Below, in pieces: positions 2,660 through 8,890 of a DNA stretch of 14,511 bases. Position numbers and translations under genes: made by a program. Within the stretch, counting starts at the first letter, position 1. Each line of letters begins with the position of its first letter. The notes below the pieces were generated by a model. The model was not told the DNA's origin. It did no database searches and saw nothing but the letters and a program-made list of their open reading frames with translations. Origin of the DNA: Candidatus Zixiibacteriota bacterium (lineage in GTDB: Bacteria; Zixibacteria; MSB-5A5; GN15; JACZUZ01); contig JACZUZ010000007.1 in NCBI GenBank assembly GCA_022572905.1, positions 1-14,511 on the forward strand. Direction: 5' to 3'.

Positions 2660-4741
2660 ATGAGTCAGACAACAAATACATCGCCCACGATGCTGGATAG
2701 TCTAATGAAACGCTCAGACCTGCTCCTGGCGCTTGGAGTAGTGTGTATACTTGTTGTGCTGGTTATTCCGATGCCGGTGTGGTTGATGGATTTCGCGCTG
2801 GCTTTCAATATAACTTTCTCGCTGATAATTCTTCTCTCGACACTCTACGTCCGCAAAGCGCTGGATCTTTCCATATTTCCCGGCATGCTGCTTTTGATAA
2901 CACTCATGCGACTCGCTCTTAATGTCGCCACCACCAGACTGATTCTAAGCGAAGCGTATGCCGGCGATGTAATCAATTCGTTCGGACAATTTGTGGTTGG
3001 CGGAAATTATGTAGTCGGATTCATCGTTTTCGCAATTCTGGTGATCATTCAATTTGTAGTTATCACCAAGGGCGCTGGAAGAATTTCCGAAGTCGCCGCG
3101 CGATTCACTCTGGACGCAATGCCCGGCAAACAGATGGCGATTGACGCCGATCTGAACGCAGGCCTCATTACAGACACCGAAGCTCGCTCACGTCGCGCAA
3201 AGATAGCCGAAGAAGCGGATTTTTATGGAGCCATGGACGGCGCCTCGAAGTTTGTGCGCGGTGACGCTATCGCCGGAATTTTGATAACTCTGATCAATAT
3301 TGTCGGCGGATTTATAATCGGCGTCGCCATGAATGATATGTCGATGACCGAAGCTTTGCGCACTTACACTCTTCTCTCCGTCGGAGACGGGCTGGTTACT
3401 CAGATCCCCGCTCTGATCGTTTCGGTCGCGGCTGGCCTAATAGTTACTCGCGCGGATTCTGATGGCAACATGGGCAGCGATTTAGTTCGTCAGTTGACCG
3501 GCCAGCCCAGCGCCATACTGGTCGCGGGCGGCATGCTGATTGTGTTCGGCATTGTGCCGGGCATGCCGACTCTGACATTCTTCGCGCTCGGTAGCGTCGT
3601 CGGGGCTATTGGATATATGGCGCGCCAGGATCAGGAGAAAAAAGCTCTTGCGGAAGCCGCAGCTTCAGAAGAAGTAACCAAAGCGCCGGAAGAAAAAACA
3701 GAAGACCTGCTCAAGGTTGATCCACTGGAAATTGAAATAGGCGCAGGTCTAATTCCAATGGTTGACAGCGCCCAGGGCGGAGACTTGCTCCAGCGCGTTT
3801 CAACCGTGCGCCGCGAACTGGCTATTGAACTGGGAATCATTATTCCGCCCGTCCGCATTAGAGATAATGTAGAGCTTGATCCAAACGTATATCGAGTCAA
3901 GTTAAACGGCGTCAAGGTTGGTCTGTTCGAGTTGATGAACGACCACCTTCTTGCCATCAACCCGGGCGCCATTGACGAAAGCATAGAAGGTTTTTCAACT
4001 ATTGAACCTGCGTTCGGGCTTAAAGCCACGTGGACAATACCTAATCTCAAGGAAACCGCCGAAGCGCGCGGATACACGGTCGTAGAGCCTTCAGCCGTGC
4101 TGGCTACACATCTGACCGAGATTATTCGCACAAATGCGGCGGAATTACTAACTCGTCAGGACGTCGCCGGATTAATTGACACACTAAAAGAGGATGCGCC
4201 GGCTCTTGTCGAAGAGTCTGTTCCGACAGTTGTCACAATCGCGCTATTTCATCGCGTGTTGCAGTCGCTTCTCCGTGAACGAATTCCAATACGCGATCTA
4301 GGTTTGATTCTCGAAACAGTTTCAGATTATGCCAGCGCAACGAAGGAGCCGGAAGTGCTGGCTGAATACGCCAGAATGACTCTCAAGCGCAGGATAACTG
4401 AACTCTATAGATCGCCAGATAGCTCGATAAATGTATTCACAGTTGACCCGGCCGTTGAACAAGCCATAGCTGAATCAATCCAGAATTCACGACAGGGCTT
4501 GATTATGGCCCTCGCTCCAGAGGTGATGGAGCGTCTCATCAAATCTGTAAATGAAGAAGCGCAAAAGCTGACTAACTCAGGCTTCACTCCGATTTGTCTC
4601 TGCTCGCCCAATGTCAGATTAGCTTTAAGAAAAGTAATAGAAACGTCAAATCCTCAGGTCGTTGTCTTGAGTTTCAACGAACTGGTTTCAGATGTGGAAG
4701 TAATCGCTAAAGGTATAGTGAGGTTAACAGATGATAATTAA
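2660..4741 (+). CDS. flhA: FlhA flagellar export-gate protein (FHIPEP family)
   Basis: A 693-residue protein of typical length. The N-terminal half (about residues 18-330) holds roughly eight membrane helices and the FHIPEP signature: GRISEVAARFTLDAMPGKQM near residues 140-160, then GAMDGASKFVRGDAIAG. The cytoplasmic half (from about residue 355) carries the family segment RERIPIRDLGLILETVSDYA. FlhA forms the nonameric ring that receives export substrates and chaperones and uses the proton motive force. It lies 12 nt after flhB, and its last 11 nt overlap flhF. The end of the gene also encodes the flhF ribosome site (GTGAGG, 4718-4723), so translation of the two is probably linked. Nothing is missing. 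Confidence 0.97.
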   Translation: MSQTTNTSPTMLDSLMKRSDLLLALGVVCILVVLVIPMPVWLMDFALAFNITFSLIILLSTLYVRKALDLSIFPGMLLLITLMRLALNVATTRLILSEAYAGDVINSFGQFVVGGNYVVGFIVFAILVIIQFVVITKGAGRISEVAARFTLDAMPGKQMAIDADLNAGLITDTEARSRRAKIAEEADFYGAMDGASKFVRGDAIAGILITLINIVGGFIIGVAMNDMSMTEALRTYTLLSVGDGLVTQIPALIVSVAAGLIVTRADSDGNMGSDLVRQLTGQPSAILVAGGMLIVFGIVPGMPTLTFFALGSVVGAIGYMARQDQEKKALAEAAASEEVTKAPEEKTEDLLKVDPLEIEIGAGLIPMVDSAQGGDLLQRVSTVRRELAIELGIIIPPVRIRDNVELDPNVYRVKLNGVKVGLFELMNDHLLAINPGAIDESIEGFSTIEPAFGLKATWTIPNLKETAEARGYTVVEPSAVLATHLTEIIRTNAAELLTRQDVAGLIDTLKEDAPALVEESVPTVVTIALFHRVLQSLLRERIPIRDLGLILETVSDYASATKEPEVLAEYARMTLKRRITELYRSPDSSINVFTVDPAVEQAIAESIQNSRQGLIMALAPEVMERLIKSVNEEAQKLTNSGFTPICLCSPNVRLALRKVIETSNPQVVVLSFNELVSDVEVIAKGIVRLTDDN

Positions 4742-6116
4742 ATCATTCCTGGCGGATAGTATCGCCGATGCCCTAAAAATGATCCGATCCGATCTGGGCG
4801 GTAAAGCTGTTGTCTTAAAAACTCGCGCGCTGTCTGCGCATGAGAGTGGACAGGGGCGTAGAATGGTCGAAATAACAGCATGTCTAGACAACCCGACCGT
4901 TGGCGCCGTTGGATCTCTCGACCGAGAGCGCGTTTCGGGTATGTCCAATGCCTCTCAAAAAGTTCCGGGCGCTGTTGAAAAACGGTCTATGGCTCCAAGA
5001 ATAAAGGATGACACTCGGATGATTCCCGGGAAGGTTGCGGGGGGCGACGATGTCAGAACTCTAACGAAAAGTCAGAAACTTGTGCTTAAGCGAGGCCCCG
5101 AGGTAGTCGAGAACTTAGCCGATAGGCCTATCGATAAGCCATTCGAAAAACCAGTCGTAGATCACATCGAAGAGATGGCGGATGAAACTGAAGAAAAAAC
5201 GATTCAGACTGCGCAAATGGAAAAGATAAGCTCCGCAACTGAAACAAAAGAGTTCATCCTCAGGCTTGAAGATAAGCTGGATAAGATTCTCTGCGCCCAG
5301 GGCGCTCCCAAGCTTGTAGCAGACTTTTCGGACGAAGCGGCGATCATTCAGAACATCCTTGTCAAAGCCGATATCCCCGATTTCTCAACCAGGCGTCTGA
5401 TGATCAGACTCCTTGAGCGCTCCCGATTACAACCTGACACACCAATGCGTGAATTGGCGGAGAGAATGATGGTCGAGGAGTTCGCCGAGGGCTCATTGCC
5501 CGGTCTCGATTTATCTCCAAACTCAACGGTTCTCTTTATCGGACCGGTGGGAAGCGGGAAGACATCCTCTTTGGGGAAAATGTGCGTTGATTTGCTTTTC
5601 CACAAAAAGCAGAAAGTGACAATTGCAACTCTCGACGATTTCAAAGTGGCCGCCACAGAGGAAATTGCGGGCTATGCTGAAGCGCTCGGAGCAAACATTA
5701 CATACCTCGAAAACATTAACGATGACGCAGATAATTATAAAAGAGCAGAGCGAGATGACATTCTCCTGGTCGATACGCATTCGAATATCACTGATCAGAG
5801 TCAATACAACAAACTACTGGAAAACTCGCAGTCCCTTAAGCCGGATGTAACACTTCTGACAATTTCAGCGTTGACTCGCAGTATCGATGTATTGCGACTT
5901 ATTCGACGCCTCGAACCTTTCCGTCCCACGCATCTGCTTTTAACGCATGCTGATTTGACCGCCACATTTGGCGGACTCTATGCGGCCATGCAAGTGACCG
6001 GATTGAAATTAATGGGCGTCACAAACAGCCCAGGCGCTGTCGGTGGCATTAACACTCCCGACCCGGCGGAAATGGCTCGCAGAATTTTTCATGGAGCGGT
6101 TATTAATGAGAACTAG
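4731..6116 (+). CDS. flhF: FlhF-like SRP-type GTPase with altered G motifs
   Basis: A 461-residue protein built like FlhF: an N-terminal B segment (MIIKSFLADSIADALKMIRS), a charged linker to about residue 160, a helical N domain (about 165-260) and a C-terminal SRP-type G domain. FlhF normally recruits the first flagellar parts to the cell pole as a GTP-bound dimer. The P-loop GPVGSGKT (271-278) is intact. The other G motifs differ: DDFKVAA (302-308) replaces DTYRxxA, DTHSN (348-352) replaces DTAGR, THAD (405-408) replaces TKLD, and the G5 region reads VTNSPG instead of TNGQ. It may bind or hydrolyse nucleotide poorly. ATG 4731 overlaps flhA by 11 nt and has GTGAGG 7 nt upstream. The family is clear from layout and context; activity is uncertain. 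Confidence 0.88.
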   Translation: MIIKSFLADSIADALKMIRSDLGGKAVVLKTRALSAHESGQGRRMVEITACLDNPTVGAVGSLDRERVSGMSNASQKVPGAVEKRSMAPRIKDDTRMIPGKVAGGDDVRTLTKSQKLVLKRGPEVVENLADRPIDKPFEKPVVDHIEEMADETEEKTIQTAQMEKISSATETKEFILRLEDKLDKILCAQGAPKLVADFSDEAAIIQNILVKADIPDFSTRRLMIRLLERSRLQPDTPMRELAERMMVEEFAEGSLPGLDLSPNSTVLFIGPVGSGKTSSLGKMCVDLLFHKKQKVTIATLDDFKVAATEEIAGYAEALGANITYLENINDDADNYKRAERDDILLVDTHSNITDQSQYNKLLENSQSLKPDVTLLTISALTRSIDVLRLIRRLEPFRPTHLLLTHADLTATFGGLYAAMQVTGLKLMGVTNSPGAVGGINTPDPAEMARRIFHGAVINEN

Positions 6117-6987
6117 CGCTCCCATACTCAATCACCCGGACGCCGCCGACATGATTACTGGCAAGCCATTTATTGTGTCAATTCTTTCAGGCAAAGGAGG
6201 AGTTGGTAAATCAACTGTTGCCTTGAATCTGGCTTGCGCTCTGGGGCATTCCGAACTGCGAACATTGCTTATTGATTTGGATTGGAGCTTAGGCTCGCTC
6301 CACATTCTCGCAAATGTTGCTCCTGAATTCTCTGTGAACGACGTCATCAGAGAGAAAGCGTTTGTTAAAGACGTAGCCATTCCGTTGACCGCGAACGTAA
6401 GTCTTCTGGCGTCTGCTTCCGCGACCGGCGACAGCGCCGCCCCGGAGCCAATCGAGCTTGCGAGATTCATGGAAACTGCCCGTGAAACTCTTAGCGGCTA
6501 CAAGGTGATAGTCATTGACACGCCTTGCGAGCTGAGTGAGTCTCTTGGCGTAATCGCGCATACGTCCGACCTGCCAATTCTTGTTCTCAATCCTGAGATT
6601 ACAGCAATTACAGCTTGCTACGGGATGTACAAATTTCTCGTTACTCTGAATAAAACATTTACCGGAGCGACGCTTCTAAACTGCGCTTCCAGCGTTAGCG
6701 AGGCCAATGACATCGCTCAACGCTTTGAAACTATGACTTCCAGATTTCTGGGACGAACTCCAATCAATATCGGAAGCGTCCCGCTTGATCTCTTGATAAA
6801 GAATTCTGTGGCGCGCCAGACTCCGGTAGTCGTTAGACATCCCTCAGCGAAATCGTCAGTCCAGTTCAACGTCATAGCGGGGCGCATAATCAATTTGCTG
6901 TTCAAAAATCATACAAGCCCGAGACTAAATGAAATTGAAACAAGAAATTCTAACTACGAAACACTACAAGCCGATATTAAGGGGTAG
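6106..6987 (+). CDS. flhG: FlhG/FleN MinD-like ATPase
   Basis: A 293-residue MinD/ParA-family ATPase. The deviant Walker A motif GKGGVGKST is at residues 29-37, with A' DLD at 57-59 and a Walker B aspartate at D138 (VIVIDTPCEL). FlhG limits flagellar number and normally stimulates the FlhF GTPase through an N-terminal DQAxxLR motif. The 20-residue N-terminus here has only a weak remnant (PDAADMI) with no Gln or Arg. The family segment TPExTxITDAY reads NPEITAITACY. I chose ATG 6106, which has GGAG (6093-6096) 9 nt upstream and overlaps flhF by 11 nt. The frame is open further upstream to 6043, but that extension would lie deep inside flhF. The sigma factor starts 7 nt after the stop. Confidence 0.92.
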   Translation: MRTSAPILNHPDAADMITGKPFIVSILSGKGGVGKSTVALNLACALGHSELRTLLIDLDWSLGSLHILANVAPEFSVNDVIREKAFVKDVAIPLTANVSLLASASATGDSAAPEPIELARFMETARETLSGYKVIVIDTPCELSESLGVIAHTSDLPILVLNPEITAITACYGMYKFLVTLNKTFTGATLLNCASSVSEANDIAQRFETMTSRFLGRTPINIGSVPLDLLIKNSVARQTPVVVRHPSAKSSVQFNVIAGRIINLLFKNHTSPRLNEIETRNSNYETLQADIKG

Positions 6988-6994
6988 CGGAAGA

Positions 6995-8017
6995 ATGACT
7001 ACTGTTCAAACAAAGAATGCAAGCGACCGCAAAAACAACCCATACGCGGAAACGAATGATTCAGGCGCCAAGCTTGTGCGAGAGGAAGTTGTCAGTGGAA
7101 ACAGCAACTGGCAAAAAGCTCAGGAGGATGAATTGAAGCACGAAAACAATCAAGCGCCAGAAAGTCCGACTCAAGTGACGAACGTTGAAGAACTTCTCGC
7201 GGACGCTGGTATTCTGGCCGCCAAACCTCGCCGTGAGCGTCGCTCAGCGTTGGCGTCTCTGGAATGGGCTCGATACAGACGGACTAAAGCTCCTGAAGCA
7301 AGACAGAATCTGCTGAATATCTATCTGCCGTTGGTAAGAAGTGTTGCAGGTAGAATGGCAATGGGCTTTCCGCGTTCGGTGGACCTGCACGACTTAATAA
7401 ACACTGGCGTAATTGGATTGATTGAAGCGTTCGCGAATTTCGATCCGGATCGTGGTGTGAAGTTTGAGACTTACGCAGTTCCGCGCATTCGGGGCGCTAT
7501 TCTTGACGAACTTCGCGCATTGGATTGGGCGCCGCGCTCAACTCGCGCAAAGGCTCGCAATATCGACAAAGCGATAAACGCTCTTGAAAATGACTTTGGT
7601 CGTCCCCCGACTAATGATGAATTGGCCAAGAGACTGGAATACTCGGTGGAAGAGCTCTTAGCCGCCCAGGATGATGTCAGTAGCGCAACTATTCTGTCGC
7701 TTGATGAAGTGATATATGGCGATGATGATAATCGCCAGGTTCCGAGAATTGAAGCGGTGGAAGACCCTCAGGGTTCATCGGTTTTGAACTCCCTCATGAA
7801 AGATGAGGTAAGAGCGTTTTTGAGAATGGCGATCGGTCAGCTTACCGAACAGGAAAAGCTGGTGGTCGCGCTCTACTATTTTGAAGAGCTGACTCTCAAG
7901 GAAATCGGTGAGGTAATGAAAATATCTGAATCGCGAGTTTCGCAGATTCATACTAAGTCGGTAAGCAAATTACGAGCGCTAATAAAGGAGCGCTTTGGAC
8001 CACATCCGGAAAGCTAG
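6995..8017 (+). CDS. fliA: Sigma-28 family RNA polymerase sigma factor (FliA/WhiG/SigD type) with long N-terminal extension
   Basis: A 340-residue sigma factor. Region 2 runs from about residue 90 (EWARYRR...LLNIYLPLVRSVAGRM, then DLINTGVIGLIEAF). The sigma-28 signature AVPRIRGAILDELRALDWAPRS is near residues 158-180. Region 3 lies at about 185-235, and the region 4 helix-turn-helix (LTLKEIGEVMKISESRVSQIH) is near 297-320. It should direct RNA polymerase to late flagellar promoters. Family members are usually about 240-260 residues; this one has about 85 extra N-terminal residues rich in Asn, Glu and Lys, likely disordered. ATG 6995 is chosen because AAGGGG lies 10 nt upstream; an ATG at 6929 inside flhG is possible but has no such site. 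In SigD/FliA systems an anti-sigma factor such as FlgM is usual, and none is obvious here. Confidence 0.95.
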   Translation: MTTVQTKNASDRKNNPYAETNDSGAKLVREEVVSGNSNWQKAQEDELKHENNQAPESPTQVTNVEELLADAGILAAKPRRERRSALASLEWARYRRTKAPEARQNLLNIYLPLVRSVAGRMAMGFPRSVDLHDLINTGVIGLIEAFANFDPDRGVKFETYAVPRIRGAILDELRALDWAPRSTRAKARNIDKAINALENDFGRPPTNDELAKRLEYSVEELLAAQDDVSSATILSLDEVIYGDDDNRQVPRIEAVEDPQGSSVLNSLMKDEVRAFLRMAIGQLTEQEKLVVALYYFEELTLKEIGEVMKISESRVSQIHTKSVSKLRALIKERFGPHPES

Positions 8018-8065
8018 AACAATATATCTGGAACATAGTGGTCGGATGTGCGCGGGAGTTTAGAG

Positions 8066-8398
8066 ATGATTGGTTCGGAATCATTAGGGAGTCTTTCAAG
8101 AACTCATGGAGATGAACGCCTCATGAGGATACAGAAGAGCGCTCCCGATGGAAAGAATAAGAAATTTGAAAAACTTCTCAAAGATGAATCTGACAATGAC
8201 GGAAAACAAGAGCCGGACAAGCAGGAAGACACATATCAATCCATAAAAGATATCGAACAGAAAGAGAAACTAACGGATCAGGAAGTAATTAAGAACTCTG
8301 AAAGACAGAAAAATATAACTCCCCCTTCCGAGGAGGTGGAGAAGACGCAAGACACGAAGTCAGGCGACGGAACCGAACACATCGATTTAAAAGCCTGA
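8066..8398 (+). CDS. Small charged, probably disordered protein of unknown function
   Basis: A 110-residue protein I do not recognise. It is very rich in Lys, Glu, Asp, Gln and Ser, has no Cys or Trp, no membrane segment and no signal peptide, and should be largely disordered. The start ATG 8066 is supported by GGGAG (8054-8058) 7 nt upstream; a GTG at 8048 would add six residues but lacks a site. It lies 48 nt after the sigma-28 gene and 24 nt before a membrane protein, so it is probably in the same operon. Its size, charge and place recall disordered anti-sigma factors such as FlgM, but I see no FlgM motif. A secreted or chaperone-like flagellar protein is equally possible. Confidence 0.7.
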   Translation: MIGSESLGSLSRTHGDERLMRIQKSAPDGKNKKFEKLLKDESDNDGKQEPDKQEDTYQSIKDIEQKEKLTDQEVIKNSERQKNITPPSEEVEKTQDTKSGDGTEHIDLKA

Positions 8399-8422: not shown

Positions 8423-8890
8423 ATGGAATTCAATGAAGAAAGATTAATCGAGGCAGGGCTAAATTTCATCGCCTATGTCGCGGCGGCAGGGGCTATCGGT
8501 CTTGTCTACACGATGTTTTCGGGGAAGCGAAAAAAACTTTCGACAGTGAACGCCGCGCCTGTTGCATTTACTCCAGCTCTTCCGGGCGAGTCAGGTCGTG
8601 CCGGGTTCAAATTTGGGGCGGATATGTCTTTAGATCATCGCTTGAGCGGAGTGAGTCCCAGTGATATCAAAAGTGAATCCTACTCCGGGCGCCAAATGCG
8701 AAGAGCTAACTCGGTTGAGTCTACCGACTCGGTGCAATCGCGCTTTTCTCGCAATAGACGCGAAGTAATCGAACTGGCGCGAAAAATGTTGGAGTCCGGC
8801 GAATCCGCAAGTAGAGTGTCTGATCTTCTTCCCCTTTCCGAATCCGAATTGAGTATGGCAACAATTGCTGCGCGCGGAAACGCTGCCTAA
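8423..8890 (+). CDS. Single-pass membrane protein with C-terminal helical motif, YlxL/SwrB- or DUF2802-like layout
   Basis: A 155-residue protein. One hydrophobic helix (about residues 12-31, GLNFIAYVAAAGAIGLVYTMF) is followed by a basic GKRKK stop, a linker of about 75 residues, and a C-terminal helical segment (about 111-150: REVIELARKMLESGESASRVSDLL, then SESELSMATIA). The anchor + linker + short REVxxLAxxGxSxxxxAxxLxxSxxEhxL-type tail is the layout of small proteins found just after the flagellar sigma gene in other phyla (YlxL/SwrB in Bacillus, DUF2802 proteins in Proteobacteria). SwrB promotes export-gate assembly in Bacillus. The link here rests on layout and place only. AGGAAGGA (8405-8412) precedes ATG 8423 by 10 nt. 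Confidence 0.75.
   Translation: MEFNEERLIEAGLNFIAYVAAAGAIGLVYTMFSGKRKKLSTVNAAPVAFTPALPGESGRAGFKFGADMSLDHRLSGVSPSDIKSESYSGRQMRRANSVESTDSVQSRFSRNRREVIELARKMLESGESASRVSDLLPLSESELSMATIAARGNAA

Follow-up and report, generated by a model that had tools for sequence, protein, structure and literature searches.

FlhF proteins and their described mutants

FlhF, the third SRP-type GTPase, is described structurally from B. subtilis (2px0, 2px3, 3syn) and S. putrefaciens (8r9r). The arginine finger resides in its G2 motif, the DxxG of G3 positions Mg and water, and the Asp of G4 reads N1 and N2 of guanine, as set out in the accessible part of PMC10910532. The protein is activated by its partner FlhG via an N-terminal DQAxxLR helix of the latter (available sections of PMC12826062). 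In S. oneidensis and P. aeruginosa, the GTPase activity is reported to be needed for motility, unlike placement of the flagellum (PMC12713375, accessible text), and the NG domain of Shewanella FlhF binds HubP regardless of nucleotide (PMC11236974, in the part available).

A set of mutants relevant here comes from V. alginolyticus (PMC6092412, accessible text). R334A has no GTPase activity and shows normal flagella and polar localisation, as placement is likewise kept after loss of activity in P. aeruginosa R251G, where the same Arg is changed; GTP binding by R334A is not confirmed in that text. G380A still makes flagella, more strongly polar, with reduced motility, while flagella are reduced in K437A and abolished in T306A and D439A. 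Substitutions K305A, G299A, G304A and D377A reduce flagellation, with some flagella still formed, and the change of E440 to Lys is fatal. It should be kept in mind that 11 of the 12 mutants in the GTPase motifs precipitated, G380A and K437A included. The need of FlhF for GTP hydrolysis has thus far been argued from point mutants, which disagree between species.

Retention of a GTPase fold after the loss of catalytic motifs is known from degenerate septins and from the pseudoGTPase domains of p190RhoGAP (PMC10731463, PMC5593906, in the parts accessible), which differ from FlhF in being eukaryotic and belonging to other GTPase classes. A literature search returned no example of an SRP-type pseudoGTPase and, among open papers, none that describes a natural FlhF lineage with an altered GTPase.

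The locus and its FlhF

The window, i.e., the whole 14,511-nucleotide stretch of Candidatus Zixiibacteriota DNA that was analysed, comes from a fragmented genome assembly (484 contigs, 2.49 Mb in total) with a completeness of 76.57%. It harbors a cluster of flagellar export and placement genes, in which the order flhA-flhF-flhG-fliA is kept:

from 129: fliQ
from 712: fliR, named from position and sequence
from 1580: flhB, named from position and sequence
2660..4741, + strand: FlhA, upstream neighbour (TIGR01398, 885.5 bits)
4731..6116, + strand: FlhF with altered G motifs, 461 aa
4731..4889, + strand: conserved N-terminal part of the FlhF B domain (MIIKSF...ALKMIRSDLGGKAVVLKTR...VEITACL), from the TIGR03499 match and an alignment
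5541..5564, + strand: G1/P-loop, GPVGSGKT (residues 271-278), kept
5634..5654, + strand: G2, DDFKVAA against DTYRxAA (residues 302-308), Asp kept, Arg replaced by Lys
5772..5786, + strand: G3, DTHSN against DTAGR (residues 348-352), Asp kept, Gly and Arg lost
5865..5888, + strand: SALTRSID loop with Arg383 (near-fixed in the order) and Asp386 (fixed in the order)
5943..5954, + strand: G4, THAD against TKxD (residues 405-408), Asp kept, Lys lost
6021..6035, + strand: G5, TNSPG against TNGQ (residues 431-435)
6106..6987, + strand: FlhG, MinD-type ATPase (AAA_31, 1.9e-14, read from 6088)
6929..8017, + strand: FliA/WhiG sigma factor, downstream neighbour (TIGR02479, 256 bits, cut-off 189.6)

The 3' end of flhA overlaps the start of flhF. 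The start of flhG was chosen with a simple ribosome-site heuristic, and an alternative ATG exists at 6091; for fliA, a later ATG near 6995 is a possible start. Further 3' of fliA, there are small proteins (see below), a DUF2225 protein, a PilZ protein, response regulators (the second of them named from position and sequence) and a FapA protein.

The flhF frame (4731-6116) has no internal stops, and its product contains an SRP54-type NG domain (PF00448, 64 bits, cut-off 22.7). The NCBIfam model of FlhF, TIGR03499, aligns from model position 1 and stays under its cut-off (109 bits against 174.15). The best PDB match found with phmmer is B. subtilis FlhF (2px0, 1.5e-11), and a profile built from 14 FlhFs, with the window protein as first member, retrieves 8r9r at 6.3e-37 and 2px0 at 2.5e-33. 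Homology and gene place together identify the protein as an FlhF orthologue. Of the 132 phylum genomes, one has a listed match above the TIGR03499 cut-off; hence, automatic annotation may not name the FlhFs of this phylum, because the model misses them.

The window protein shares with the known FlhFs the B-N-G architecture, the P-loop, the Asp residues of G2, G3 and G4 and the place between flhA and flhG-fliA; it is unlike them in that the arginine finger, the Gly of DxxG, the Arg of DTAGR, the Lys of G4 and G5 are replaced. The phmmer alignment with 2px0 pairs DTYR with DDFK, DTAG with DTHS, TKID with THAD and TNGQ with TNSP in a single register. At the Arg of DTAGR, the window protein has a one-residue gap against B. 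subtilis FlhF and Asn352 against E. coli Ffh, so there is no Arg under either alignment. The P-loop pattern GxxGxGK[ST] of an active SRP-type GTPase is found, and DxxR, DxxG and [NT][KQ]xD are not; judged by its motifs, the protein is a GTPase-altered variant of FlhF. An AlphaFold2 model computed from three sequences was of low confidence (pLDDT 45.8).

The earlier note on this DNA, made from the letters alone, had described an FlhF with altered G2 to G5 and a kept P-loop. All of these motifs lie where they had been placed, but the description goes too far: the Asp of G2, G3 and G4 is kept, and G4 is only half altered, since its guanine-reading Asp is still there.

Distribution of the altered motifs

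The search covered 132 genomes of the phylum, all from one class. FlhF was read from 91 of these, 90 being usable; the remaining one (G042) has a run of N in the G domain. The order of the window contributed 73 usable FlhFs (74 with G042) from 80 genomes. Six genomes (G016, G023, G037, G057, G058, G121) were left out, as a full FlhF was not among the matches listed; in G023, the contig ends before FlhF does. A further 17 FlhFs were read from outside the order, and that of G101 was added later. Eight outgroup FlhFs served for comparison, from two Nitrospira, Bacillus, Cupriavidus, Acetoanaerobium, Pontibacillus, Aeromonas and Priestia; the Nitrospira loci came from a P-loop pattern scan of contigs, which gave at least two. 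N runs inside flhF occur in the assemblies of two loci, L079 (G042) and L164 (G101).

The residues expected to hold the nucleotide are nearly invariant. The P-loop Lys is present in 73/73 FlhFs of the order and 8/8 outgroups, the Ser/Thr following it in 72/73, the Asp of G2 in 72/73 and that of G3 in 73/73, and the guanine-reading Asp of G4 (Asp408) in 73/73 and, again, 8/8 outgroups. The picture is reversed at the catalytic positions. The Arg of DxxR, found in all eight outgroups, is Lys in 70/73 FlhFs of the order and Arg in three; the Gly of DxxG (outgroups 8/8) is retained in 11/73, being replaced by Ala (44), Ser (15) or Pro (3) in the rest; the Lys of G4 (outgroups 8/8) remains in 4/73, with Met in 52 and His in 17. 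The Arg of DTAGR was found in 0/73. Its loss alone proves little, since it is also missing in four of the eight outgroup FlhFs (Ile in two, Met in one, Val in one).

The substitutes follow the families of the order. His is the G4 residue in family f1, to which the window belongs (4/4), and in f3 (13/13), whereas Met takes its place in f2 (6/6) and f4 (46/50). At G5, Pro434 is found in f1 (4/4), f3 (11/13) and f4 (43/50), and in 0/6 of f2; the outgroups have Gln in six and Arg in two. The G3 loop of f1 reads D-[TC]-H-S-N-I in 4/4, with H350, S351 and N352 in each, the three genomes other than that of the window (G001, G002, G003) having D-C-H-S-N-I and T-H-T-D in the corresponding positions. 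These three are also the FlhFs of the order with Arg in DxxR. A second correction to the earlier description concerns DDFK: within f1 its Lys is peculiar to the window, the other members having DDFR, and in the rest of the order Lys is the rule.

Arg383 is present in 70/73 and Asp386 in 73/73 FlhFs of the order. The idea that Arg383 is a clear gain was weakened by the outgroups, as four of the eight have a basic residue there (Arg in one, Lys in three). Taken together, these counts make the altered motifs a trait of the whole order, and the order with its equivalent changes can be regarded as a natural experiment on FlhF hydrolysis. Neither this order-wide spread nor the absence of the activating helix from FlhG (see below) had been noticed in the earlier note.

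Family f7 of the same class departs further: the P-loop Lys of its FlhF is Arg (4/4) and the Asp of G4 is lost (4/4), so that f7 FlhF is a candidate full pseudoGTPase. The gene (L058, L068, L069, L074) still lies between flhA and flhG. Useful comparisons are offered by f7, which has also lost nucleotide-binding residues, and by the sister lineages f13 and f17, which have kept the motifs.

When the Vibrio positions are matched with those of the window by motif, i.e., without aligning the Vibrio sequence, R334, G380 and K437 correspond to K305, S351 and H406, all changed, and T306 and D439 to T278 and D408, both kept. Ala, the residue of the G380A mutant, is the commonest one at this position in the order (44/73). 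The positions of Vibrio K305, G299, G304 and D377 are conserved here, though mutations there only reduced flagellation. At the E440 position, the window has Leu, and the order Leu in 41, Glu in 13 and Gln in 9 of 73. The laboratory mutants differ from the window FlhF in that the latter is natural, combines the change of the same Arg with changes in G3 and G4, and shares this state with its order.

Maintenance and descent of the gene

The relatives of the window FlhF have open frames, among the matches listed. In six pairs with dS < 1, which share genomes, fall into four groups and come from families other than f1, the dN/dS of the G domain was 0.060-0.163; the B domain gave higher values in the same pairs (0.205-0.556). 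Four further pairs with higher dS gave 0.070-0.154, one of them being the only f1 pair (G001/G003), which gave 0.077 with dS near saturation; the f7 pair was saturated and thus uninformative. By this measure, the G domain of the relatives' FlhF is under purifying selection. The frame without stops, the order-wide conservation and these ratios bear out the earlier view of an intact, maintained gene.

In an FlhF tree of 96 rows, built by a quick method with the motif columns removed and with G042, G020 and G099 left out, each multi-row family is set apart from all other rows by a single branch; f1 adjoins f4 (support 84), and the order stays together (99). As the tree follows the families, the history looks like vertical descent rather than acquisition of a foreign gene.

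A normal FlhF elsewhere in the genome, which had been suggested as something to look for, was not found: a second FlhF was absent from all 14 genomes searched (14/14). In each of the 12 near-complete genomes among them, the matches over the cut-off comprise Ffh, FtsY and a single FlhF; an extra match in G047 is a MeaB/ArgK-like GTPase, judged from its sequence, and one in G068 lies below the cut-off. The relatives G001 and G003 (96-97% complete) are better evidence on this point than the window genome, given the incompleteness of the latter. DTAGR and the DxxR Arg are both present in all 26 Ffh/FtsY loci read, which belong to 14 of the genomes analysed. The pattern [TS]KxD was found in 25/26, the exception being AKLD; the SKDD of L113 is perhaps not the G4 site. 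The motif change is, therefore, specific to FlhF, the motifs of Ffh and FtsY being normal in the same genomes.

The FlhG partner

Upstream of the FlhG P-loop, DQA was found in none of the 87 FlhGs read in the phylum (0/87), that of the window included. It is present in three of five outgroup FlhGs, the two without it being those of Nitrospira. Nitrospira FlhF keeps DxxR, DxxG and TKxD though its FlhG is without DQAxxLR; hence, the absence of this helix does not imply a dead FlhF. A strict coupling between the loss of FlhF motifs and the absence of DQAxxLR was rejected for the same reason, the helix being missing also beside orthodox FlhFs of the phylum.

The ATPase motifs of the window FlhG are intact (SGKGGVGKST, LLIDLDW). 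FlhG was scored at six positions, the roles of which we take to be those in MinD: the signature Lys, the P-loop Lys and Ser/Thr, both Asp residues of DxD and the switch II Asp. Of the 70 FlhGs from the order, 67 have all six, the exceptions (G001, G003, G018) having Asn for the second Asp. Elsewhere in the phylum, the state of the two partners differs by family. In f17, with orthodox FlhF, the second switch I Asp of FlhG is lost via a two-residue gap (4/4: L033, L034, L037, L038). In f13, also with orthodox FlhF, the FlhG P-loop is broken in 3/3, counting G101 (L035, L036 and L164); the three P-loops read GAGGSGRT, GSPLYGKS and GSPPPGQS. Both partners are altered in f7 (4/4). In the other seven genomes from outside the order, the FlhF motifs are incomplete throughout; FlhG is intact in five of them (one each in f8, f10 and f14, two in f9) and altered in two (one in f9, one in f14). 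In one genus of the phylum, g12 (G012, G024, G128; loci L048, L043, L065), fliA directly follows flhF and there is no flhG at that place; a search for flhG elsewhere in these genomes gave short weak matches in G012 and G024 and none in G128.

Thus, both partners are intact in 0/87 phylum genomes in which both were read and in 5/5 outgroups. On the tree, the state of orthodox FlhF changes once and that of intact FlhG on seven occasions, and one independent pair can be drawn; since there is one contrast, the reciprocal pattern, striking as it is, describes these genomes and does not amount to a statistically independent correlation. As a strict law, reciprocity was rejected on this ground and because both partners are altered in f7 (four genomes), in G085 and in one of the two f14 genomes. 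Overall, it would seem from the distribution that the helix of FlhG and the active sites of both proteins can each be lost independently of the others.

With the heuristic starts, the short N-terminus of FlhG in the order often reads M(x)NRL (e.g., L029 of G021 and L086 of G004), NRL being found in 31/70 and [NDE]R[LIMF] in 41/70; the FlhG of the window is without NRL. It is possible, as a lead only, that NRL replaces the DQAxxLR contact.

Possible mode of action and its alternatives

The order appears to keep the residues that hold the guanine nucleotide and to change those that cut it. From this pattern, we infer nucleotide binding, absence of hydrolysis and a polar function: the window protein is probably a maintained FlhF orthologue, in which nucleotide binding is kept and the GTPase cycle is lost or strongly slowed. 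Of the possibilities raised in the earlier note, binding without hydrolysis is the one that best fits the kept and lost residues, whereas a preference for another nucleotide is weakened by the invariance of Asp408. The P-loop, the metal-side Asp residues of G2 and G3 and the Asp of G4 would hold GTP or GDP; the arginine finger of DxxR, the water-placing turn of DxxG, the Arg following it and the Lys of G4 are replaced, and FlhG has no DQAxxLR helix, by which the active site of FlhF is completed in other bacteria. FlhF could then act as a long-lived, nucleotide-bound polar platform, held in place by its NG domain, either dimerised or bound to a landmark, with the conserved B domain recruiting the first parts of the flagellar ring. 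Its release would proceed via, e.g., division, turnover or the ATPase of FlhG rather than via stimulated GTP hydrolysis. Against this reading, 11 of 73 FlhFs of the order keep DxxG, four the Lys of G4 and three the Arg of DxxR. Lys is also able to substitute for Arg sometimes, and a catalytic role may have moved to the conserved Arg383.

These last points lead to an alternative which we consider unlikely but worth weighing, i.e., a protein that is still a GTPase with a rewired site, where Lys305 and Arg383 replace the lost arginines and the His or Met of G4 and the P-x-L or H-S-N of G3 are tolerated. Such a site would explain why Arg383 and Asp386 are so strongly conserved and why the substitutes at the replaced positions are conserved family by family, which makes these positions look like adaptation rather than drift; the variation of the DTAGR Arg in half of the outgroups would be in line with it as well. 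Still, the arginine finger, the Gly of DxxG, the Arg of DTAGR and the Lys of G4 are all gone in one lineage, FlhG is without its activating helix, and a basic residue at 383 also occurs in orthodox FlhF. The opposite extreme, a true pseudoGTPase scaffold in which nucleotide is dispensable and the G domain is a docking module only, seems rather improbable for the window: the invariance of the P-loop Lys and of the Asp residues of G3 and G4 throughout the order is not easily understood if no guanine nucleotide is bound. That FlhF can go so far is indicated by f7, to which the strict scaffold proposed earlier fits better than to the window FlhF, and the nucleotide-independent binding of FlhF to HubP in Shewanella (PMC11236974, in the part available) would favor a docking role.

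The many motif losses, the changes of FlhG in several lineages and the genus without flhG beside flhF might also be expected of a gene on its way out, with selection relaxed after polar placement was no longer needed and the frame still unbroken. This is very improbable in view of the open frames of the relatives (among the matches listed), the low dN/dS of their G domains, the conservation of the substitutes in the motifs themselves and the gene order kept in the window. A sequencing or assembly artefact, for which the fragmented and incomplete assembly is the sole argument, has a negligible probability, the same residues being found in G001, G002 and G003 and related changes across the order in separate genomes; sequencing error was thereby ruled out, as the comparison with related genomes proposed earlier had been meant to decide.

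The preferred reading, binding without an effective GTPase cycle, may be part of a wider process in which the FlhF-FlhG switch of two NTPases was dismantled piecemeal in the phylum once the FlhG helix was absent; this is a tentative proposal, toward which we lean somewhat less than away from it. Under it, the order would have lost FlhF catalysis and kept the ATPase motifs of FlhG, f13 and f17 would have kept the FlhF motifs with an altered FlhG, f7 would have lost the FlhF P-loop Lys, and one genus would do without flhG in the cluster, no genome read keeping both partners. We infer that the FlhG helix was lost first, though the phylum may never have had it. If dismantling of this kind did occur, flagellar placement in these bacteria would operate on one switch, or none.

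Candidate FlhF partner and a small protein downstream of fliA

Two short genes follow fliA:

8048..8398, + strand: small charged protein lying between fliA and the next gene, C-terminus conserved (HIDLKA)
8423..8890, + strand: single-TM protein with C-terminal G-x15-E-x2-[LMIF], candidate divergent FipA (FlhF partner)

The protein at 8423-8890 has no Pfam match. A comparable single-TM protein was seen in 13 of 16 relatives read and not in the other three (G071, G079, G090); the window protein and 12 of the 13, all but that of G005, have G-x15-E-x2-[LMIF] near the C-terminus. This spacing fits the invariant residues G110, E126 and L129 of FipA (PMC11620751, accessible text). The FipA family model PF10975 (DUF2802) gave no match over its cut-off in the 16 genomes, the protein of G087 reaching 24.9 bits against a cut-off of 33.5 and the Aeromonas DUF2802 protein itself 89.4 bits. 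Weak matches (E up to 1) also occurred in 10 of 14 control genomes, so the PF10975 search alone shows nothing, apart from G087. A profile of the 14 single-TM proteins ranks the Aeromonas DUF2802 protein first of 342 ORFs (E 0.0034); the hhalign probability for the latter is only 10%. The 8423-8890 protein may thus be a divergent FipA and a candidate landmark for FlhF, as a lead rather than proof; if so, FlhF would have a divergent partner of this type beyond the gammaproteobacteria, the group from which FipA is described.

The protein at 8048-8398 likewise has no Pfam match. An ORF with the tail [ILV]-D-[ILVFY]-x-[AG] is found at the same place in the window and in the 16 relatives read.
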